Shown here piece by piece: positions 12,301 through 55,700 of a DNA stretch of 64,000 nucleotides (position 1 is its first letter; the number at the start of each line of letters is the position of its first letter). Source of the stretch: Centroberyx gerrardi (taxonomy: Eukaryota; Chordata; Actinopteri; Beryciformes; Berycidae). The DNA is taken from contig NC_135997.1 of assembly GCF_048128805.1 (NCBI RefSeq), positions 558,001 through 622,000 of the forward strand. The letters are read 5' to 3'. Position numbers and translations under genes: made by a program. Below the pieces are notes generated by a model, which searched no databases, had not been told where the DNA came from, and saw nothing but the letters and a program-made list of their open reading frames with translations.

Positions 12301-15300
12301 CTTGGAAGAGTTGACGTTTCTAGCTCTGCTAACTGTTATAAAACTAAATGATCTCGTTCCTAAATAGCTTCGAAAATGATCTTCGCTTGGCCGAGCGTTG
12401 ATAACTTCTTAACTATTAGACGCGAGGTTCAGACTTCATGTACACGATTCTTAAGTTCATCTGGAGAAGACGTCTCTAACTCCAGGTTCAAACTCTAAGT
12501 TTCAGCTAAAGTCGAATTGTAGCTAAATTGTTGATCTTGGCTTCAGCAGGTTTCTTGGCGAGGGCGGAATGTTGAACTCTCTGAAAACCCAGATAAGAAC
12601 ATTTTATAGCTCTTTGAATTCTCAGGCGTGGTTTGCCATGCAAATCACGCTTCGCGCTCTTTTTCTGTTTACTAATTAATTTCTTTGTTTGAGAAGATTT
12701 CAAGGGAGGGGGGAAAGGAATGCAAGAGGAATCATTCCTCTAGTCTATTTTATTTTGTTATCTATTACTAAGTGATCTTAATAAAGATTCCTTTTAAAAT
12801 AATATGTCGGTATTTTACATCTCCACCAATTACTGTTGTCAATTGATCGAAATAATAAAAACCTGTTAACTTACATTCAAACTTATATAGCTAGCACATC
12901 AATATAAGGACATCAAATAAACCTTCCTGGTACAATCTGTGGCTATAAAGTCTCCATCAAGTTAACTCATATATGTGACTTGTGTCTCTAACTGCGTGAT
13001 CAATATGAGAAAAATAATTTAATCATTTAAGACATTTGGACGCACTGACATTTTATACTGACATGTCGTTGCTATAAATGACCACAAGGTGGCAGTGTAG
13101 GACCATGAAAATAGGAGAGTGTCTCTGGACGAATATCTGATACACTTCAATCATTTAACACATCATGGTCTATGCATGTAACTTTAGCTATTGAACATCT
13201 TCAACATATATATGGGCCTAAGTATGGATGTGTGATTGTATAGTTCACTAGTATTCCTGAGTTCTTGAGTCCTTCTCCTCCTGATGGCTGAAAGATAAAG
13301 GTCGTTAATTGTGGAATGTGTGATGGCGTTTCAAACCTCTTCGCCGGGTTGGTATCCTGTCGTTAATTTCCTGAGCTGTCCTGTGGAGACATCTCTGGCT
13401 GGCATAGACTCAACTCCTTGAGCCATGGACTGTGTCCATTCGACACCTTATGGCCACTTGTTGTGATAGGCCATTTGGTGTTGATTCAAGAAAGCAACAG
13501 AAAGGTTGTGGGCTTTCTGCAAATGTCTCCCTGGTATCGCTACAAATGAATCACGATATTATCTAAATTTTATTCTGCTGTAGTAATCACAAATGAGACG
13601 CTTGACCATCACAATTTCACAAGCTCTCCATCCAAATTATATTATTTGTGCTTTGACATTTTTGTGTGACATTTTTAAATTGTTGTTTACATTCTAGCAG
13701 CCAATGCCATCGCTAGGAAAAATTGTGGCTCAGAAATAAACAGAATTCTGCACAGTCAGACTTTGTTGTCACTGAACCTTTATTTATTACATCGTATCGT
13801 GAGATAAGCATGCCATCGCTTCCCTATTGATCAACCCCTCTGATTGGCCCATGGAGCAGTGAGGAGGCTTTTTATTGGAGGTTGTACTGCAGGTGCTGCG
13901 GTTGGGAGGCGGGGGTGTAGTGTGGTGGGTGGGTGGGTAGGGGATGTCGCCATTGTGGGTGCATTCGTCTAAGGGCGCCTGGTATCCTCCCAGTCACATG
14001 ACGAGTGACACAGCCTACTTCTCTGTTCTAAGAATTCACACGTAACTTACATCACAAATATATCTACATGGCTTTATTATAGGTCTTGGGAGAAAAACAT
14101 CAAGAGAAAAGGAAATGTACATGCACTTTGAATGTTTTTTTTAAATGCATTTGGTCATCGAAGTGTTTACTGGTCAGACTTTTTTTTGTCAAACTTTACA
14201 GTTTCCCCTCCATTTTAGCCTGACATGAATCTTTATGATGTAAATTCATGGTGTAAATCATATTAAGAGGTATCAAGCTGAGGGTAAAGGGTAAAAAAGC
14301 ATAAATTGATGTTTTACTGACTGTTTTATGTTCAGATTGGTGGTTGTTTGACTTATAATAACCATTGACTGGCGGTCATAGTTTAACCACTTTAACTTTC
14401 CAGCACATCACTGCTCTGAACTCAGCTTTCACGAACACACCCATGGTAATGTTGTTAATAGCTGCGATGCTGACAAGGAGCTGAAGTACGTCATGTTGAC
14501 CTTTGACCTCTCCAGGACGCCGAGCGCTGCGTCCCGCTGAGGGTGTTTGATGGAGGTCATGGAGCTGCCATCAGTGAATGTGCTGTGATCCCAGACAGGA
14601 ACAGGTGAGTTTAGAAAAATCACCCAGAGCGGCTTCCAAAAGTCACCAGCCACTTTCACTGTTTCACAGCCAGACATGCCGTCACCACCCTCCCACCAGC
14701 CCAGCCACAGTTTACTAAGGAGGAAAATGACTGAGTGGAGGTTTATTAAGGAGATGTCAAACCAACTAAAGAAACGGGATAGAGCTGCTCGAAGAAAAAT
14801 ACAACTATTAATAGTATTTCAATCAAGGAAGACACAAAAGGTGATGCACAAAAGACAGATGTTTATAATATATAAGACAAGAGCTTTGGTGTTGACCGCG
14901 CCGCAGGAAATAATTTATAGGAGATAAAACCCTGTAAATAAATGCTATTCCGAAGATTCCCCCTGGGGAGCCATGGATGGGAAACAAACACTGAAATGAC
15001 AGCAAGGAGACGTAACAGGTAGGCAAGGTATCACCCGCCAAGCAAGATCATTGGCTGACAGAAAGCCTGAGAGATAACCACAGGTGTTCACTGGATGACA
15101 GTAACTGTGAGCCAGAGACCCGGTGTGCGAAGAGAGAGCGAGAAAGTGAAAGGGATTGTCTTCCTGCCTGAACTTCTTGCACTAAGAGCTTCATTAGTAA
15201 TACTGTATGTACTGTATGTGTGGCTGTGGGTGGCTCACTCTTATTTATTTTTTTATAAAATCACTATTAATTGGGCCTGTTTCTATACTCAAGTGAATGC

Positions 15301-37530: not shown

Positions 37531-40500
37531 GGGCTGGGGTTTGTCTGACCTCTACGTTGACGTTCCTGATCTGCAGGTTGACCAGGGAGAACTCCTGCTG
37601 CAGGGTCTGCGGCAGACCGGGACCCGGGGCTTCATGCCGGCCGCTGGAGCTCAGAGCGGAGTGAACCCCGTCCGGGTCTGGGTAACGACGAGGAGACACG
37701 TCAGGACGTTACTGATACATGTGAGATATACATGATGAGGGAAAATGTATCTTGGAAACTCGATTTGACTTAAACTAATGTGCATCAATTTCTCTCTCCA
37801 CAAAGGGAGAGAGAGAGAGAGAGAGAATTAGACTGTCCCACTACTGCTGCACAGCTCCAGACACCCTGAATAAGGACCCACATATTCATTAACACATTGG
37901 GAAGACAGACATTATCACAGGAGACATTATATTCTACTAAAGCAAAAAAACAGCACAGAATTGAACATGTCTATTCACTTCTGTTGAGATGAACAAGTTG
38001 TACTTTTAGAGACACAAACAGCCACTGTTGACCAAGAGCTGAGGACTTCCAACATGGCCGCCAGAGGGTGCGTTACATCACCTGAGAGCCCTGTATCCAT
38101 CTATCACTACCAGGTAACATGAGGCGTAGTGAAGGAGCGGCCAGCTGCTGCTCTCACCCTGCAGGTCGTCGGCTGACAGGCCGGTGGTGTGCTGAGGCTC
38201 GGGCTCCTGGGAGGACAGGGTCTTCTCCGACTCCATGGTCAGAGACATTCCCTCCATCAGCTCCTCCACTATGTCGTTAGCACACAGCTAAACAACACAC
38301 ACATCAACATGAATACACACATTCCAAGGAAAACACATTTATGTCAATTTATTTCTGCTCTGAGGATGTGACTGATCTGGACTTACCTTCTGCAGCTGTG
38401 GATCAACTCTCCATATCCTCAGAGTCTGGTCTCTGGACCACGTAACCAGCTGGTAATCCTTGGAGCCTGCAGACAGAAAACAGTCAGGCCTAACCAACAT
38501 ACAGCTGTCAGGCTTCCTACGCCGCTTCCATTTCATAATCCCATACTTTTTCACCCTGTTCCCCATTGATTTCACCCTGTTCACATTTTTTTCTTTGAGT
38601 TGTCACATGTTCACTTGTGAGTGCGACTGCTTTCCCCTGTGGGCCAGTGTAGATGGTTTGTGAGAGCTGATGACAGGACAAATCTATCCAGTGGATTCTG
38701 GCTGAGAAAAATATTGCGGTTTCTGATCAGAAAACCAGCGAGTTCGCAGCCTGAAGCAGTAGCAGTAAACGTGGCACCACACAGCAAGCAGGGGGAGAAA
38801 ATGCCGACCAACACAAACCACTGCAGCAACAAAAACTAAAACAACCGATATGGTAAAAAACAGCAGGAGGGTGAAGATGGACGGGATGGGGACAGACAGT
38901 CCTCTGGAAGGCCTGCTGCCAGGTTCCAGCCAGGGGAAAGAAGTTAAAACAGATCTTAGTGCTGTAAATTGTGTGTTCATTTACCAGCATGCAATGCAAA
39001 TGTATTATGAAAAATAATATAAATTGCCCCCTAGGACCAAAATGCCCCTAAAAATCAGATCGAGGGAAAGAAATGCCCTCAGGACCAATGGAGTCGACAG
39101 AAGTTTTCTTAGCATGAGATTGAAGAGAATAGATTGAAGTAGAAGTCTGTTTATATATATATAAAATCAGTCAATCTCCTGTGACCTGGCACCGAATAAT
39201 CGTCTGGGATCAGAGCGCCACTTCTCCTTCACCTTCTTTCTGCGGACGCCACTGGAACTCCAGCACCACGTCATCGTGACCCACGAAGGCGTGGACGGGA
39301 CTGTTGAGGTCCAAGGTGCTCCACAGCAACAGGCTGTTCTCTCTCCGCAGCTGGGGAACCATCACCGTCACCAGGCCGCTGGAGAAGGGCTGGGGGGGGG
39401 GGCACAGAGGCAAGGTTAGCAACACACACCCAACGCTAGTCTAAGACCATGTGTGGTCTCCTGTAGGTCTTTTGTAGACTACTTAATGTGAAAACGATGC
39501 ACATTTGCACATCATGTAGATTGCTGTAAATTCACATACTTGTTTCTTCAATTTTCACATCTCTCCCTTATTGTTATTCATCGCTGTTGGGTGAAAACCT
39601 CGTAACTCCAATTTTGATCATTTTTATGTTTCAGCTTCAACTGAATAATTACATAATAATAACTTTGTTTATAGAGCAGTTTTCAAAACAAGGTTACAAA
39701 GTGCAAAAAAATATATAAAATATGTAAAGCTGGGAAAAAATATAATAATAAGAAAATGGATTGAGGAACCCATGCTACCATCCTTTGTCTGATGAAAGTT
39801 TCAAAACTAATTGGATAAACTCAAAAAACCATCTTGGTCAAGCTAAAAACAAGGCTGTTTTTCTTAGACATACTGAGATTTTATTACGTTATTTTTATAC
39901 ATATGTTTATCTAAATAGCACATATTTCTAATTTAGTAATGCATTTTTAAGTAAGCAATCGTGACTGCTAGCAGCATCGGTAATCAACAAAAGTCAGTCT
40001 GTGATCTTGGACACAGCACAGTGTGTGGTGGAGTCATGGTGAGGTCAGTCAGAGGTCATGGTGAGGTCAGTCAGAGTCATGGTGAGGTCAGTCAGAGTCA
40101 TGGTGAGGTCAGGCAGAGGTCATGGTGAGGTCAGGCAGAGGTCATGGTGAGGTCAGTCAGAGTCATGGTGAGGTCAGAGCAGAGTCATGGTGAGGTCAGG
40201 CAGAAGTCATGGTGAGGTCAGGCAGAGGTCATGGTGACGTCAGGCAGACATCATGGTGAGGTCAGGCAGAGGTCATGGTGAGGTCAGAGCAGAGTCATGG
40301 TGAGGTCAGTCAGAGTCATGGTGAGGTCAGAGCAGAGTCATGGTGAGGTCAGAGCAGAGTCATGGTGAGGTCAGAGCAGGGTCATGGTGAGGTCAGGCAG
40401 AGGTCATGGTGAGGTCAGTCAGAGTCATGGTGAGGTCAGAGCAGAGTCATGGTGAGGTCAGGCAGAGGTCATGGTGAGGTCAGGCAGAGGTCATGGTGAG

Positions 40501-43500
40501 GTCAGAGCAGAGTAATGGTGAGGTCAGGCAGAGGTCATGGTGAGGTCAGTCAGAGTCATGGTGAGGTCAGGCAGAGTCATGGTGAGGTCAGAGCAGAGTC
40601 ATGGTGAGGTCAGGCAGAGGTCATGGTGAGGTCAGGCAGAGTCATGGTGAGGTCAGGCAGAGGTCATGGTGAGGTCAGAGCAGAGTCATGGTGAGGTCAG
40701 GCAGAGTCATGGTGAGGTCAGTCAGAGTCATGGTGAGGTCAGAGCAGAGTCATGGTGAGGTCAGAGCAGAGTAATGGTGAGGTCAGAGCAGAGTCATGGT
40801 GAGGTCAGGCAGAGGTCATGGTGAGGTCAGAGCAGAGTCATGGTGAGGTCAGAGCAGAGTCATGGTGAGGTCAGGCAGAGTCATGGTGAGGTCAGGCAGA
40901 GTAATGGTGAGGTCAGAGCAGAGTAATGGTGAGGTCAGAGCAGAGTCATGGTGAGGTCAGGCAGAGGTCATGGTGAGGTCAGAGCAGAGTCATGGTGAGG
41001 TCAGAGCAGAGTAATGGTGAGGTCAGGCAGAGTCATGGTGAGGTCAGGCAGAGTCATGGTGAGGTCAGTCAGAGTCATGGTGAGGTCAGTCAGAGTAATG
41101 GTGAGGTCAGGCAGAGGTCATGGTGAGGTCAGGCAGAGGTCATGGTGAGGTCAGGCAGAGGTCATGGTGAGGTCAGAGCAGAGTCATGGTGAGATCAGGC
41201 AGAGGTCATGGTGAGGTCAGAGCGGACTCACGGTGTATCTGGCCTTCCACACCGGAACCTGGCAGGACAGGATGTTCAGGTACTTCCTGGGCTGCCTGTA
41301 ATCCCAAAACTACACAGACAGATGAAGGTAGAGTGCAGTGAATGTTGAAGGCGGTATGAATGATCAGTGAAAATGTTTTGACAGAAAATATTGATCAGCA
41401 TGGCACCTTGCCGATTTTCAACCTGTCGATATTGTTTGGAAGGATGGAATGACACTGGAATACACTGGAATACCAGCCACAGCAAACACTCAGCTGACTG
41501 AGGTTAGAAACATGGAAGATTTTAACAATATCACTTTAATTTATTCAGAGAGAACCAAACTTTTAATTGGTAATTATTGGCTGAATGGCAATCTGACCGG
41601 ATTTGTTGATGTTGGTATGGTTCCAGTTCTGCTAAAGCATAGCCATGGATGCAAAACCAAAAACCTTCCATGTTTATAACCTCGGTTAGCAGAGCATTTA
41701 TCTGCAGTAACGTCTTTATGAATCAACCAAACGAAGCGGACCTCTTCACTGCAGAGTGATATGATTGGATGGAACAGTATTCTGTTATTCAGAGACACCA
41801 GACCTCAGAATGCCTTGATTGTCCAATCAGAATTGAGTTTTCAACAAAGCTGTGTAATAATTTGCGATAACGACCAGCTGGCTGTCCGTTACCCCTGACC
41901 TGGGACCCCCCTCGTCAGGCCGGCGGTGTGACTGCAGGGAGGTGAGCTGGTCTTACCCGGACAGAGTTGTCCTGGCTGGACGTGGCCAGGATGAACTCGT
42001 TGTCTGGATGCCAGTCCAGACCGTGGATCTTAGACAGGTGAGCTGCTACGTATTCCACTGCTGTGTTCGGTTTCTAGTAGCACCAAACAGGAAAACAAAT
42101 CAGGAAAATAAAAAGTGCAACAAATACAAGTTTATAGTCAAATAGGCGTTTCAGAAAATGTATTTATAATTAATTTTTTTAGCCTCAACTAGGAGCACAA
42201 AATGCCATACATTCTATTAATGAAATGATGAATAAAATCTTTCTTTATTACTACAACAGACTGACCAATAAAGTCACAACGAAACATTTTGATAGTATCT
42301 TGCATATTTCCAGTTGAAACAAGTTGTTGGGGCGGGACAGACGTGGGTCAGCGGGTCGGACCGGGACAAATATGGAAGGTGACTTTGCTCATAATGAGCT
42401 TCACAAATTCCAGATTCCACCATGTTGCCACTCTGTTATTTTGAACATTGTCATGTTGCAAGTTTTATATGCAGTAAGTAACCACTAATGATATGTAGTT
42501 TTCCAGGAAGTACAAGTATTGGGATTTTGATATCAAATCCAAGAAAACAAAAAGTTTGTAAATTTTTTTGGCATTTATTGTTAATAGTTGTACGCTATGA
42601 TATGGAGAATTAGCCAACAATGTGAAAAAAGTAATTTTTCATTTAACTGTGACTTTAACAAAGCAGTCTGCTTGCTCAGACACTGGAGTGAACAGCGTTC
42701 AGCTTTTCCTGACTGATACTCAAGTCAGCCACTCACTCTTTTATCCCAGATTCGTACGTCACCATCATGACTGGAGGCGAGGAGATACTGGTTCCTTCTG
42801 TTCCACTTGACCTGAGACGCTCCGGCTGCAAGAAAAACAGAGTGACAGGAAAGAGAGAGGCTGACGGAGAAGGCTGGATGACAAGAAGAATATTAATCCA
42901 ACAGAGACGATAACTTGGATCCTCCAAACTGCCTGCAGACTCACCGACAGCAGACAGAGCCACCGTGGGTTTCCGCGTGTCTCTGTGAAAACAAACAGGC
43001 AGATTAAAAGCCTCTTCCTACAATACATACAGTGCCAACTACATCGTGTCATCTGCCTTCTTCTCAGGCTGTCTCATCACACTGAGCTCTCACCTGGTGT
43101 CCCAGATGTAGATGTAGGTGTCCACTGAGCTGGTGACGAGGTACTCAGGCTCAAACCAGGACCAGTCCAGGTCGCTGGAGGCAACAGAGTTTGTATTGTT
43201 AAGGAAGAAATGGAAAAGTACCTATAATAAGCAACATTCCTACAGTATATTCTCACTTAATATGTATTCTTTGACCCATATTTTAGTGCCTAAAACTCCA
43301 GAATGCTGAATCTGCTTCACCGTTATAAGATGAAACTCTACAGTAACATCTTGTGTGTTTCTCACTGAACTGAGGCTGGAATGTGCAAATGAACAAATCT
43401 CATATAAACACTGACAAAATAATAACTTGTCTTCTCCTTAAAGTGCTAGAACTATAATTATCATTGGCTGTTCAGTCTTGTTCATACAACCTTATACTTT

Positions 43501-46776: not shown

Positions 46777-49700
46777 ACTGCCTTGGTGGAGCATGTTGTC
46801 GCAGACGCTGGAGCATTTTTAAAGAAAGCGCCTCTCCAGGTGAGAATTTATTCACGTTTGAACCTCTAGAGGCTTTAAATAAACCAGATCATCCCCAGAA
46901 AAGGTTGCAGTCCACCGTGGGACCGTTAATCAGACTGTGATGACTGCTAAGCTAGTCGCCACAAGGGGCCACGCCAGTCAGTTGTGCTTGCTCTTTAACA
47001 CCAAAAGCAATATTAAAGGAGAATACCAGTCATTTAGTTACAGCCAGTTTACTTCTGGCTATGCGTCTAATTCATCACTCTGCAGTATATGCCGTGTGTA
47101 AACATTTATTCTGTTTTAACTCTGTTCAAACGTCCCGGTGGCAAACCAAATGAACTGCTGTCCCGACTAACAAAGACATCCTAAATAAAGAGACATGGAT
47201 GTGTGTGTAAAGTTTTAGAGGCGACATGTTTTTGAGGGATTGTGTCCTGGAGGAGACTTCCATTTCTTAACTGAAAAACAAAATTAAGTTTTCATCTTTA
47301 CTGTGATGGATTCTCTCTCTCTGTGGAAGTTTGTTTTTCATCCTGGACAAGAATGAACGGCAGCAAATGTTTTCTTCTTCTGAAGGAGGAAAACGAGCGC
47401 TGATATCTGCAACTATACTGACTGTGTGCAGAACCAGAGAGGAATTATCCTTTAAATGACACTGATCATTTGTGTTGATTTGACTTGTTGTAGGAAATCG
47501 GACAGAACATCTACACCCTGAAAGATGTGGTTGATGAGATCCGGGACAAACCCACCAGGAGGAGTCTGGCGTTCCTGCCGTACCAGCTGAACTTCAAAGA
47601 GCCTTACCCCGAACACATCAGACTGGGTAAACCTCCCGCCGGCCGCCACACTGCGCTGAGCTTCCCTCCTCCGCAGCAGATGGTCTGAGCTCTCTTGTGT
47701 TTCTCCTCTCTGTCCAGTGACCGAGTTCTCCAAGAAGACCGGAGACTACCCCAGTCTGTCGGCCACAGACATCAAAGTCCTGGCTCTGACCTACCAGCTG
47801 GAGCTGGAGCACGTCGGGGCCGAACACCTGAGGAAAGAGCCAGAAGTCAAGGTAAGGACAGCAAGTCTAAACGCCCGTTCACATCTAGAACGAGAACTAC
47901 AAACTGTAACGAGGCCCTGCTGCTCAAGCTTCACACTACAACATACATTTTGGTGCATGTTTTGATCAGTAAGGCCTGGATAATTTAGTGGCACTGGCAG
48001 CTGCCGACACACTGTGGCACTTCCACTGGATCTGTGGCACTTCCGCTGGATCTGTGGCACTTCCACTGGATCTGTGGCACTTCCGCTGGCATGTCAACTA
48101 ACAGCGGCACCTTGGTGGCACCTACAGCGGAGAGTGGGAGCACGGCACAAGCCACTCTGCCCAGCGGCACTGGCCATTGTGTGCCATTGTTAGTCTATTC
48201 TACGGCTGCACAATAATAAATAAAATACAGCTAGGCTGCAGCCTATGTACATTTTTAAAAATAAATACATAAATAAAAGGACTCGCCTACATGACCAAGA
48301 AAGGGAAGCCATTGCCTACAAAACTTCCAGAATTTGAACTAACTTCAAGCTATAAAAGCTTTCATTTGGTTGTCTTTAATATAAATAATGAAAAAAATCT
48401 TAAAATATTTTCGTAAATGAAGCTTATAGGTGGAAGCACAACATAGCATTAAGCATCAAACATTAGATTTTATTCAAAATGTTTTCATTGTTCTTCCTTT
48501 ACTTTGTTTTCATTTACAAAAAAGTGTTTAGACGTGCTATAAATGACTCTGTAAAATTAATGCAGGCCTTGAAAAATATGTAATTACAAAATAAATTAAA
48601 GCTGCAAGCAGCGATGATTGGGCCCTCGCACTTTGCGCACATCGGGGTGTGCCGCAGCCACGGCATCGTTACTGGACACCGACCGGTCGACGTGGCTCTG
48701 AATTTTCATTATAAAACATGTCATTTCCTTTTGCCAGTAGGTGGCGCTATGACTATGATTGAAAATTGGCCTGTAGATGTGTTCAGGCCGGGACTCTCAT
48801 CAAACGTGTGAAGTTTGGGGCAGATTTGACCATGTACAGCTGAGTTCCAAACCACTTCCTATGTTGCCAGTAGGTGGCGCTATGACCATAAGTAAATATT
48901 GGCCTGTAGTTTTGTTCAGGCCGGGACTGGCATCAATCGTGTGAAGTTTGGGGCAGATTTGACCATGTACGGTGGAGTTACAGAGCACTTCCTGTGTTGG
49001 CAGTAGGTGGCGCTATGACTGTAATTGAATATTGGCATGTAGATGTCTTCAGTCCGGGGCACGTATCAAACATTTGCGTTTGGGGCAGATTTGACCATGT
49101 ACAGTGGAGTTACAAACCACTTCCTGTGTTGCCAGTAGGTGGCGCTATGACTGTAACGGAATATTGGCCTGTAGATGTGCTCAGGCCGGGACTCTCATCA
49201 AACGTGAAGTTTGGGGCAGATTTGAGCATGTACAGTGGAGTTACAAACCACTTCCTGTTTTGCCAGTAGGTGGCGCTATGACTGTGATTGAAAATTGGCA
49301 TGTAGAAATGTTGAGGCCGGGACACTTATCAAACATGTGAAGTTTGGGGCAGATGTGACCATGTACAGTGGAGTTACAAACCACTTCCTGTTTTGCCAGA
49401 AGGTGGCGCTATGACTATAACTGAATTTTGCCATGTTGATGTCTTGAGGCCATGACACTTATCAAACATGTGAAGTTTGGGCCAGATTTGACCATGTACG
49501 GCCGAGTTACAAAGCACTTCCTGTTTCGTGGCGAAACATGGAAATTCGACGCCTCGCCACGCCCACGCCGTTCGAGGAAAACTCAAGCTTTTAATAACTT
49601 TTCATCGTCAAGGTCTGTTATATACGCTGAGCAAGTTTGAGGTGGATCCGATTAACTGTCTAGGAGGAGTTCGTTAAAGTATGACCCCTGTAAATGGGCA

Positions 49701-52700
49701 AAAACGCACAAAAATGCCACAATCAATTCAAAATGGCTGACTTCCTGTTGGGTTTAGGTCATGGCACCTATTGACGTTTTTTGTAGGTCTGGACATGATA
49801 CATGTGCCTACCAAATTTCGTACATGTAGATCAAACGTAGAGCGATGAGTATTATTTTGAAATTTTGTAGGGGGCACTATTGAGCCATTTTGCCACACCC
49901 ATGCGCGAGACCCATAAAATACGTAATTTTTCAGCACTTCTGACGTATGTGCAAATTTTCGCAACTTTTCCAGCACCTTTAGCCCCTCAAAAATGCGATT
50001 CATTGGAGGGAAAAATAATAATAATTAAAGCTGCAAGCAGCGATGATCGGGCCCTCGCACTTCGCGCATGTCGGGGTGTGCCGCAGCCGCGGCATCGTTG
50101 CTGGACACCGACCTGTAGACGCGGCTCTGATTTTCTGTATATAACGTGTAATTTCCTGTGTTGCCAGTAGGTGGCGCTATGTCTATAACTGAATATTGGC
50201 CTGTGGATGTGTTCAGGCTGGGACACTTAGCAAACATGTGAAGTTTGGGGCAGATTTGACCACGTACAGCCGAGTTACAAACCACTTCCTGTTTTGCCAG
50301 TAGGTGGCGCTATGACTATGACTAAATATTGCCATGTAGATTTGTTCAGGCTGGGACTGTCATCAAACATGTGAAGTTTGGGTCAGATTAGACCACGTAC
50401 AGCCGAGTTACAAGCCATTTCCTGTGTTGCCAGTAGGTGGCGCTATGACTATAACAGAATATTGGCATGTAGAAATGTTGAGGCCAGGACTCTCATAAAA
50501 AATGAAGTTTGGGGCAGATTTGACGACGTACAGCCGAGATACAAACCACTTCCTGTTTTGCCAGTAGGTGGCGCTATGACTATAACTGAATATTGGCCTT
50601 TAGATGTGTTCAGACTGTGACACTTAGCAAACATGTGAAGTTTGTGCCAGATTTGACCACGTCCAGCGGAGTTACATACCACTTCCTGTTTCGTGGCGAA
50701 ACATGGAAATGCGACGCCCCGCCCATGACTATAACTGAATATTGGCCTTTAGATGTGTTCAGACTGTGACACTTATCAAACATGTGAAGTTTGGGGCAGA
50801 TTTGACCATGTACAGTGGAGTTACAAAGCACTTCCTGTTTCGTGGCGAAACATGGAAATGCGACGCCCCGCCCATGACTATAACTGAATATTGGCCTTTA
50901 GATGTGTTCAGACTGTGACACTTAGCAAACATGTGAAGTTTGGGGCAGATTTGACCATGTACAGTGGAGTTACAAACCACTTCCTGTTTCGTGGCGAAAC
51001 ATGGAAATTCGACGCCCCGCCCATGACTATAACTGAATATTGGCCTTTAGATGTGTTCAGACTGTGACACTTAGCAAACATGTGAAGTTTGGGGCAGACT
51101 TGACCATGTACAGTGGAGTTACAAACCACTTCCTGTTTCGTGGCGAAACATGGAAATGCGACGCCCCGCCCATGACTATAACTGAATATTGGCCTTTAGA
51201 TGTGTTCAGACTGTGACACTTATCAAACATGTGAAGTTTGGGGCAGATTTGACCATGTACAGTGGAGTTACATAGCACTTCCTGTTTCGTGGCGAAACAT
51301 GGAAATTCGACGCCTCGCCACGCCCACGCCGTTCGAGGAAAACTCAAGCTTTTAACAATTTTTCATCGTCAAGGTCTGTTATATACGCTGCGCAAGTTTG
51401 AGGTTGATCCGATTAACCGTCTAGGAGGAGTTCGTTAAAGTATGAACCCTGTAAATGGGCAAAAACGCACAAAAATGGCACAATCAATTCAAAATGGCTG
51501 ACTTCCTGTTGGGTTTAGGTCATGGCACGTATTGATGTTTTTTGTAGGTCTGGACATGATACATGTGCCTACCAAATTTGGTACATGTAGGTGAAACGTA
51601 GAGCGATGAGTATTTTTTTGAAATTTTGTAGGGGGCGCTATTGAGCCATTTAGCCCAACCCATGCGCAAGACCCATAAAATATGTAATTTTTCACCACTT
51701 CTGACGTGTGTGCAAAGTTTCGCAACTTTCCGAGCACGTTTAGCCCCTCAAAAATGCGTTTTTTTTTTACAAAGAAAAATAATAATAATAATAATAATTC
51801 CTTGAAATACAATAGGTCCTCGCACCGGACGGTGCTCGGGCCCTAATAATAATAATAATTCCTTGAAATACAATAGGTCCTCGCACCGGACTGTGCTCGG
51901 GCCCTAATAATAATAATTCCTTGCATTACAATAGGTCCTCGCACCGGTCGGTGCTCGGGCCCTAATAATAATTAAAGCTGCAAGCAGCGATGATCGGGCC
52001 CTCGCACTTCGCGCATGTCGGGGTGTGCCGCAGCCGCGGCATCGTTGCTGGACACCGACCTGTAGACGCGGTTCTGAATTTTCTGTATATAACGTGTCAT
52101 TTCCTGTGTTGCCAGTAGGTGGTGCTATGACTATAACTGAATATTGGCCTGTGGATGTGTTCAGGCCGGGACACTTAGCAAACATGTGAAGTTTGGGGCA
52201 GATTTGAGCACGTACAGCCGAGTTACAAACCACTTCCTGTTTTGCCAGTAGGTGGCGCTATGACTATGACTAAATATTGCCATGTAGATTTGTTCAGGCT
52301 GGGACTGTCATCAAACGTGAAGTTTGGGTCAGATTGGACCACGTACAGCCGAGTTACAAGCCATTTCCTGTGTTGCCAGTAGGTGGCGCTATGACTATAA
52401 CAGAATATTGGCATGTAGAAATGTTGAGGCCAGGACTCTCATAAAAAATGTGAAGTTTGGGGCAGATTTGACCACGTACAGCCGAGATACAAACCACTTC
52501 CTGTTTTGCCAGTAGGTGGCGCTATGACTATAACTGAATATTGCCATGTCGATGTCTTGAGGCCATGACACTCATCAAACATGTGAAGTTTGGGGCAGAT
52601 TTGACCATGTACAGTGGAGTTACAAACCACTTCCTGTTTCGTGGCGAAACATGGAAATACGACGCCCCGCCCATGACTATAACTGAATATTGGCCTTTAG

Positions 52701-55700
52701 ATGTGTTCAGACTGTGACACTTAGCAAACATGTGAAGTTTGGGGCAGATTTGACCATGTACAATGGAGTTACAAACCACTTCCTGTTTCGTGGCGAAACA
52801 TGGAAATGCGACGCCCCGCCCATGACTATAACTGAATATTGGCCTTTAGATGTGTTCAGACTGTGACACTTAGCAAACATGTGAAGTTTGGGGCAGACTT
52901 GACCATGTACAGTGGAGTTACAAACCACTTCCTGTTTCGTGGCGAAACATGGAAATGCGACGCCCCGCCCATGACTATAACTGAATATTGGCCTTTAGAT
53001 GTGTTCAGACTGTGACACTTATCAAACATGTGAAGTTTGGGGCAGATTTGACCATGTACAGTGGAGTTACATAGCACTTCCTGTTTCGTGGCGAAACATG
53101 GAAATGCGACGCCCCGCCCATGACTATAACTGAATATTGGCCTTTAGATGTGTTCAGACTGTGACACTTATCAAACATGTGAAGTTTGGGGCAGATTTGA
53201 CCATGTACAGTGGAGTTACATAGTACTTCCTGTTTCGTGGTGAAACATGGAAATTCGACGCCTCGCCACGCCCACGCCGTTCGAGGAAAACTCAAGCTTT
53301 TAACAATTTTTCATCGTCAAGGTCTGTTATATACGCTGCGCAAGTTTGAGGTTGATCCGATTAACCGTCTAGGAGGAGTTTGTTAAAGTATGAACCCTGT
53401 AAATGGGCAAAAACGCACAAAAATGGCACAATCAATTCAAAATGGCTGACTTCCTGTTGGGTTTAGGTCATGGCACGTATTGATGTTTTTTGTAGGTCTG
53501 GACATGATACATGTGCCTACCAAATTTGGTACATGTAGGTGAAACGTAGAGCGATGAGTATTTTTTTGAAATTTTGTAGGGGGCGCTATTGAGCCATTTA
53601 GCCCAACCCATGCGCAAGACCCATAATATATGTAATTTTTCACCACTTCTGACGTGTGTGCAAAGTTTCGCAACTTTCCGAGCACGTTTAGCCCCTCAAA
53701 AATGCGTTTTTTTTTTACAAAGAAAAATAATAATAATAATTCCTTGAAATACAATAGGTCCTCGCACCGGACGGTGCTCGGGCCCTAATAATTCCTTGCA
53801 TTTCAATAGGGCTTCGCACCGGTCGGTGCTCGGGCCCTAATAAAACTATGATTTACGACAACCGACCTGTCCTGAAGACAAACACTTGCATATGCAAATC
53901 TGTGTCGGTTCATGCCACTGTCTTGCCCCGCCCCCCTTTCCAAAGTGCCGCTGCAGCGGACTGGCAGCAGAAAGCTCACAGCTCTCACATCTAGATCAAT
54001 AACTGTAAAGATAATTATAAACTGTTAACGATACGTTTTTGCTGAAGCATTCACGCTGCGATCAGTTCCTCAGCAGACTAAACATCAGTGAGCTAATTCT
54101 CAGCGCCCTTCTTTTGTTACAGCTTTTATCTGATTGGTTGAAAATGTTTTATTGTTGTCTCTGCATCCAAAAAATCGCTCTGAGATCAAACCAAAAATCC
54201 AGTTCTAGTGATGGTTTTGGATGTTTTTATAGTTATCGTTGTGTGGGACCACAGATATGCTGAGAGCGATTTAAACCTTTTTATTGTTCTAGATGTGAAC
54301 GGTCTTCAGGGTGTGATCTCACCTCCAGCTGGTTTTCTTTTGTCCGAACCAGACTGGAAAAGTTGACTTTGTTGTGTTTTTGTATTCGGTTCGTTTAGGT
54401 TCACACTGTCCAATTACAAGCCAACCAGAGCTTGGAAACAAAAGTCACATGACTCACAAGGAGCTCGTTTATTGGACAGAGTTTTGGTCACCTGTCATTC
54501 TGCAGGTTGGACATTTTAGTGGCGGGACGGAGTCAAAACAAAAATGATTCCAGTCTCTGTAACTTTATCTCAGCATGATGGACTTGTCTGTCTCTTCTTC
54601 TGTGGTGTTCATACCAGTTAAGAACACATGAAGCAGAACAGCTGAATATGAGCATCAGTCCAGACTTCATTCTGTTCTGCTAGGCTTTCCGAGCACAAGG
54701 AACCACATCTGTCTCCTTCTACCCATAATCCCTTGTGTTTTGGGGTAGTTGGATGTAGTCGGTTGGATTTCGTTCTCGCTCCTAACGAACCGCACTGCAG
54801 TTCTCTTGTTAGAGGACTGAGACTCTCGGTGCCGTTACTTGGTTCAAAGGTCATCGTTGAACGCAGCCTAATTTAACTTGTTAACTTGGTAGTTCCAAGC
54901 GACAGTAATAATCTGAACATTTTCTCCTTTAGGTTCAAATTCAAAGCACACAGCGCCACCCAGAGGCTCCGGTTAATGTTGCAGGATTCCACTTTCCCTC
55001 CAGGGTAAGACTGATGATGTCATTCTTAGTTACTTATCCATGAATTCTTTAAACATCTTATTAAGGAGTAAAATAAAATGTACTTATAGTTGTGTAATTT
55101 AGTCTAAAGCATCTTTCTCTTATGGTTGGCGGTCCTTGTAGAAGCCAGTGGACGGTTCATCCGGCCGACAGACTCCAGCTCAGTCCCAGACCTCCATCCC
55201 CGCTGAGGAGTTTAACAGCTTCCAGTTCTGGAGGAACCCGCTGCCTTCCATCGAGGCGGACCTGTTGGACTTGCTGGTGAGTTAAAGGTCCCATATTGTT
55301 ATTATTCAGATTCCATGATTTTGTTTCAGATCTGCTCTGGCTCAGGATGAGAGTAATGCTTCATGGTGTTTTGCAAATAAATGTAGTTTTAGTTAAAAGT
55401 AGGGCTGGGCAACAATTAAATATTATTGTTCATTGTCTTTCAGTGGAATCATATCTTGATGATATGAAAATATTTTGATATCATGATGCACAATTCTGTT
55501 GTTTAAATTGATGAGAACAAGCACATTTTATTTAAAAACTCTGACAAAATGAAGTCTGACACATTTTAAGGAATCTTGTTTGAAATGTCAGTTTTGTTTG
55601 ACATCACACTTAACATTAGTTCAACGTGATGAAATAATCAGTTTGATTATTTAACATGTGATTTAGCATACATAAGCCATATTGCAACGTATATCAATAT

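Follow-up and report, generated by a model that had tools for sequence, protein, structure and literature searches.

CTCF-type motifs arrayed within NOB1 of Centroberyx gerrardi form the central tandem repeats of a HINE-like transposon

The NOB1 array and its repeat structure

The window, i.e. the whole 64-kb stretch of Centroberyx gerrardi DNA that was analysed (C1:558001-622000 in an assembly of 779 Mb), contains coding exons of NOB1, as assessed by match to the human protein. A peptide resembling NOB1 exon 1 is found near 46780, residues 22-66 are encoded from 47494 on, residues 66-112 at 47714-47863, and residues 152-176 inside 55142-55285. Judging from these flanking frames, the array of 14 motifs noticed in the preliminary description lies in intron 3, as stated there, provided that no short exon was missed. 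A scan of the window allowing three mismatches recovered 14 motifs, 11 exact and three differing at a single base, every one of them on the + strand between 48734 and 52524, and with the spacing of 131-133 bp within blocks that had been claimed. The chance expectation, determined with 100 shuffles of the window, is a mean of 0.19 matches and a maximum of 2.

Rather than being a device of the NOB1 locus, the array forms the central tandem repeats of a non-autonomous, HINE-like transposon, which we named family A. Although the motifs span the interval originally reported, the whole elements are larger, and the region from ~48595 to ~53840 consists of three family A copies arranged head-to-tail, the second and third of which are 96.5% identical. 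The features are as follows, in window positions.

47494..55285, + strand: NOB1 coding exons on both sides of the elements (match to human NOB1)
48595..50023, ends approximate, + strand: element copy 1, with head, six 133-bp motif units, right segment and (AAT)n; the head of copy 2 follows with no terminal hairpin unit in between
48600..48631, + strand: head, consisting of palindrome GCTGCAAGCAGC and subterminal repeat GGGCCCTCGCAC; recurs from 50029 and 51976
48734..49411, + strand: six CTCF-type motifs, starting at 48734, 48867, 49000, 49132, 49263 and 49396 (18.96-24.2 bits, reconstructed matrix)
50024..51965, + strand: element copy 2, with head, four motif units, four 149-type junctions, right segment and three terminal hairpin units
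50164..50576, + strand: four CTCF-type motifs, starting at 50164, 50297, 50430 and 50561 (mismatch scan and reconstructed matrix)
50576..51319, + strand: 149-bp-period block without the motif, in which a unit end is fused to a right-flank piece (period 149, 5.0 copies, 96% matches)
51786..51972, + strand: tandemly arranged hairpin units of the 3' terminus, separated by TAA-rich spacers
51971..53840, + strand: element copy 3, with head, four motif units, four 149-type junctions, right segment and two terminal hairpin units
52112..52524, + strand: four CTCF-type motifs, starting at 52112, 52245, 52376 and 52509 (mismatch scan and reconstructed matrix)
52524..53267, + strand: 149-bp-period block without the motif in copy 3 (tandem-repeat detection)

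The order of parts within an element is head, 133-bp unit block, sometimes 149-bp units, right segment, (AAT)n, and often at least one 3' hairpin unit ending in CTCGGGCCC-TAA. Among 39 sampled loci, we found 53 complete elements, defined as extending from the head through the right segment. All 53 contain motif units on the same strand (2 to 9 each, mean 4.42), with at least four in 45 of them, which bears out the proposal that the motif is carried by the repeat. The 149-bp unit had been described as having lost the motif. This is not a matter of decay: in the 149-bp unit, the final part of a 133-bp unit is fused to ~32 bp of the right flank of the element, and the fusion point is the base directly 3' of the motif. 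Such fusion units are also present in 15/53 complete elements, never upstream of a motif unit. In each 133-bp unit, the motif is directly preceded on its 5' side by the box ACTTCCTG, which we take to be ETS-like and which is likewise well conserved.

The fit of the motif to CTCF was scored with a reconstructed CTCF matrix, and the consensus is that given in the preliminary description. All 16 bases of the motif agree with this consensus, and TTGCCAGTAGGTGGCGCTA reaches 24.2 of 28.3 bits, which makes it a very strong CTCF-type sequence by the reconstructed matrix. With the same matrix, the top score among 2 million random positions is 22.4 bits, all 14 sites of the array score at least 18.96 bits, and the core of the right segment, GTAGGGGGCGCTA, scores just 3.5 bits. 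Outside the repeat, only two window positions score at least 18.96 bits with the reconstructed matrix, single CTCF-like sites at 13079 (22.0 bits) and 29069 (19.3 bits). Elsewhere in the window, a minisatellite with a period of 22 (GAGTCATGGTGAGGTCAGGCA, ~55 copies) occupies 40031-41235. A search of the 64-kb window for RNA families gave no Rfam match at gathering scores.

Class, relatives and genomic distribution of the element

We class family A as HINE-like, an assignment that is unproven. Read on the opposite strand, its anatomy agrees with the description of HINE/DINE-1 non-autonomous Helentrons, with which it shares subterminal inverted repeats, end palindromes, a microsatellite, central tandem repeats and an AT-rich insertion; the distances at one end differ (PMC4067079). 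The subterminal inverted repeats of family A are GGGCCCTCGCAC near the head and GTGCTCGGGCCC at the tail, which pair at 10 of 12 positions. The head copy of GGGCCCTCGCAC lies 20-25 bp from the end, versus the 38-60 bp stated for HINEs in the same source. Short palindromic sequences are found near both ends, GCTGCAAGCAGC at the head and the hairpin CACCGGACGGTG at the tail. Target-site duplications are not consistent among eight isolated copies: a 14-bp repeat, lying within a CAAAA tract, is present at one of them, and the other seven have at best 3-7 bp (64 trim choices). Their 5' flank is ~60% A.

The Helitron Rep domain (PF14214) has 129 matches in the genome, with open frames of up to 2,481 aa. 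As compared by eye, none of the 29 Rep matches on C1-C3 has an exact head at a distance of 10 kb or less, and a weak 15-base head-like match occurs in five of the loci L054-L061; among these 29 matches and eight loci, we found no Rep-bearing partner with family A ends. Many Rep matches (e.g. C1:40208, C2:82370, C4:34365516 and C21:22429974) have identical scores, frames of 1,152-2,481 aa and, in several cases, positions near contig ends, so Helitrons may have been recently active in this genome.

A related element of ~1.16 kb, family B (exact tail word 143+165 in the genome), shares with family A a tail (74%, 6e-7) and a right segment (66%, 1.5e-6), and its own subterminal inverted repeats, GGGGTCCTAGCA and TGCTAGGACCCC, pair perfectly. 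It has two weaker CTCF-like cores (16.0-16.3 and 12.7 bits, reconstructed matrix), both oriented against its own head. Both are invariant in seven distinct copies, which is no evidence of constraint because 188 of the 1,088 windows of the element are equally unchanged. The sequence surrounding the stronger of the two is similar to an inverted family A unit (TAYAAACC..AYTTCCTG..TTGCC followed by the core), and since 17/1,000 shuffles were as good, we regard this likeness as suggestive only. At C2:5737162-5738041, the 3' hairpin unit of family B occurs alone, in a run of many copies spaced by ~52-73 bp.

Counted genome-wide, as had been proposed, family A has 475 exact heads (221+254) and 124+143 exact right-segment words. 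The exact motif word occurs 1,691 times (787+904; its reversed control, 0), and 948 exact pairs (436+512) lie 131-133 bp apart on one strand. The strict 16-base CTCF consensus, CCASYAGRKGGCRSYR, occurs 4,094 times (2022+2072), as compared with 17 (11+6) for the reversed pattern. Hence, one of 256 possible words makes up 41% of the strict consensus words, counted wherever they lie. The HINE-like element thus seems, as far as motif counts can tell, to have spread many CTCF-site sequences through the genome.

The uniform direction noted in the window holds more widely. The first 100 of the 475 exact heads form 41 clusters, 22 with more than one element, and all 59 neighboring head pairs point the same way; these counts take four duplicated loci separately. 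This one-way result concerns exact heads: when up to four mismatches are allowed, one head on the opposite strand appears, in locus L013. Motif-like matches on the opposite strand, at the same tolerance, occur once each in L011, L012 and L021, and those in L018, L019 and L023 are at least partly family B cores. Of the 30 clusters on C1-C3, again from the first 100 heads, 26 are no more than 6 Mb away from a contig end, in zones that make up ~0.31 of the length. On C2, whose right end is telomeric TTAGGG, 26 of the 31 listed heads fall in the first 6 Mb.

The four duplicated loci, L014-L017 (C2 near 1.21, 1.36, 1.83 and 2.53 Mb), represent one stretch of >5 kb in four copies, flanks included, with 98.7-99.9% identity. 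Two copies lie in each orientation, which points to recent segmental duplication. Composite transposition of two elements was considered for their identical layouts and rejected because the flanks are duplicated too. A search of a viral contig collection for relatives gave no match to a 24-mer, and a genome contig collection gave no match either. A single 18-mer match, at locus L083, was judged to be due to chance from the surrounding sequence.

Conservation of the motif relative to the rest of the unit

In the window copies of the motif 16-mer, which add up to 224 letters, 3 mismatches occur, against an average of 20.9 for the 16-mers of the unit. For a wider sample, loci were drawn from the first 100 listed places of the exact motif word and of the right-segment word, and units were located by a box 75 bp downstream. 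This yielded 314 units at 43 loci, of which 251 contain the motif, 59 are fusion units and 4 others were dropped. After excluding L015-L017 as duplicates of L014 and merging identical units, 205 distinct motif units from 41 loci remained.

Compared with the other positions of the unit (2831/20910), the motif (48/3280) has ~9-fold fewer shared variants, a ratio of 0.11 that is given without a P value because the counts ignore tree structure. In contrast, private substitutions are not reduced (11/3280 versus 59/20910; ratio 1.19, 95% range 0.59-2.13, from small counts). In loci picked by the right segment together with the window (125 distinct units), the corresponding figures are 27/2000 versus 1681/12750 for shared and 9/2000 versus 59/12750 for private changes. 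The motif ranks third and fourth of 125 windows in the 205- and 125-unit sets, respectively, and only windows overlapping it are ahead. An upstream anchor was also used: 384 of 1,195 anchored places passed a mid-unit filter (225 motif, 59 fusion and 100 neither, which were dropped), and in the resulting 176 distinct motif units, all mismatches amount to 50/2816 in the motif versus 1696/16896 elsewhere, and private changes to 11/2816 versus 55/16896.

The preliminary description had raised the question of whether the motif decays like neutral sequence, and the answer is split: after insertion it changes as fast as the remaining unit sequence, whereas across element lineages it hardly changes at all. 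Since shared variants are rarer in the motif and private ones are not, constraint acts on the spreading element, with none seen on inserted copies. Element lineages thus retain the motif, and inserted copies seem to lose its bases like any others. Host-level constraint, looked for as fewer private changes in the 205- and 176-unit sets, was not found; weak selection on inserted copies may still be compatible with these counts. Repeated coding is no explanation because a unit of 133 bp does not comprise a whole number of codons.

Interpretation and comparison with known systems

We put at about one half the probability that the motif arrays of this HINE-like element are bound by CTCF and useful to the element, the NOB1 array being an incidental passenger. 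CTCF would bind motif units where their CpG is unmethylated, and bound sites would aid the element by providing open chromatin or insulation for its own transcription or copying, such that lineages keeping the motif would spread. Several close same-strand sites would make a one-way stop for cohesin, and the passenger array in NOB1 may halt cohesin arriving from one side. A benefit to the element is proposed because the motif is conserved at the lineage level, with the Drosophila gypsy element as the model.

Several observations count against a CTCF role. A second box, TGAAGTTTGGGGCAGAT, at +75 from the motif start in each 133-bp unit, is nearly as conserved but does not fit CTCF, and 149-type units have multiplied without the motif (59/314 units). 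Variants within the motif fall on bases critical for CTCF (nine changes of the first C to G, and ten of the CpG cytosine to T or A), and a CTCF-tolerant pattern of variants, looked for among the sampled units, was not found. The motif may have been kept for another function of the element, whether as a target of a transposition protein or of another host factor, or as a small hairpin (GCCA..TGGC), its likeness to a CTCF site being coincidental. We consider this somewhat improbable: the second box and the extension of conservation beyond the CTCF core into TATGAC speak for it, but coincidence would have to account for agreement at 16/16 bases, for a score exceeding those of all 2 million random positions (reconstructed matrix) and for the cores of family B.

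That the apparent conservation reflects recent bursts, segmental duplication or gene conversion rather than selection appears unlikely. The near identity of copies 2 and 3, the fourfold stretch at L014-L017 and the fact that several sampled loci adjoin each other would all fit such a history. However, the same units are 10-14% off consensus outside the motif, whereas conversion would even out whole units, and the duplicates and identical units had been removed before counting. Least probable, and very unlikely in our judgment, is a CTCF boundary exapted by the host at NOB1. One intron does hold fourteen strong one-way sites, by motif, but they lie within a gene, the element has hundreds of exact heads genome-wide, and private changes are no rarer in the motif than elsewhere in the unit, a family-wide figure that is not specific to the NOB1 copy. 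For these reasons, the boundary between WDR59/NOB1 and COG8 once suggested here is unsupported, and nothing shows that the host keeps the NOB1 copy. In zebrafish, CTCF motifs are preferentially convergent at domain boundaries in one study and another data set has no such enrichment, a disagreement that counts against a CTCF explanation (PMC8438036).

If the arrays are indeed bound by CTCF, they would provide natural one-way arrays in hundreds of copies, with the motif-less 149-bp units as built-in controls. Such arrays would make it possible to study how the arrest of loop extrusion depends on the number and direction of motifs, and what leads transposons to retain CTCF sites. The arrays also carry a warning, as a single repeat family can dominate strict CTCF-motif counts in a fish genome. 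A literature search (titles and abstract openings) found no paper on the family A repeat, nor were sequence strings of the element found in papers.

Mammalian SINEs carry CTCF sites. In zebrafish, SINE3-1a and HATN9_DR are credited with 1016 and 647 CTCF sites by ATAC footprint (PMC9341505). As in that case, a transposon family distributes CTCF-type sites across a vertebrate genome, but family A has a tandem same-strand array in each element, a single word accounts for a large share of the strict consensus words, and its sites are known from sequence. The DXZ4 macrosatellite similarly has CTCF sites in tandem units, which are multikilobase and located at an X-linked locus, in contrast to the 133-bp units of dispersed family A elements (PMC8662614). 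The Drosophila gypsy insulator consists of twelve repeats bound by Su(Hw), of which at least four close sites are required for robust blocking (PMC2493044). In gypsy and, by motif only, in family A, a mobile element contains tandemly clustered sites for an architectural protein of the zinc-finger type; gypsy is a retroviral element using Su(Hw), whereas family A is small, without evident genes, and has a CTCF-type motif (PMC2493044). By this analogy, family A may tentatively be viewed, as a possibility that we rate at somewhat less than even odds, as a vertebrate counterpart of gypsy: a transposon lineage with its own multi-site CTCF insulator, selected in the element and neutrally lost after insertion, which would have left one-way arrays in hundreds of copies.
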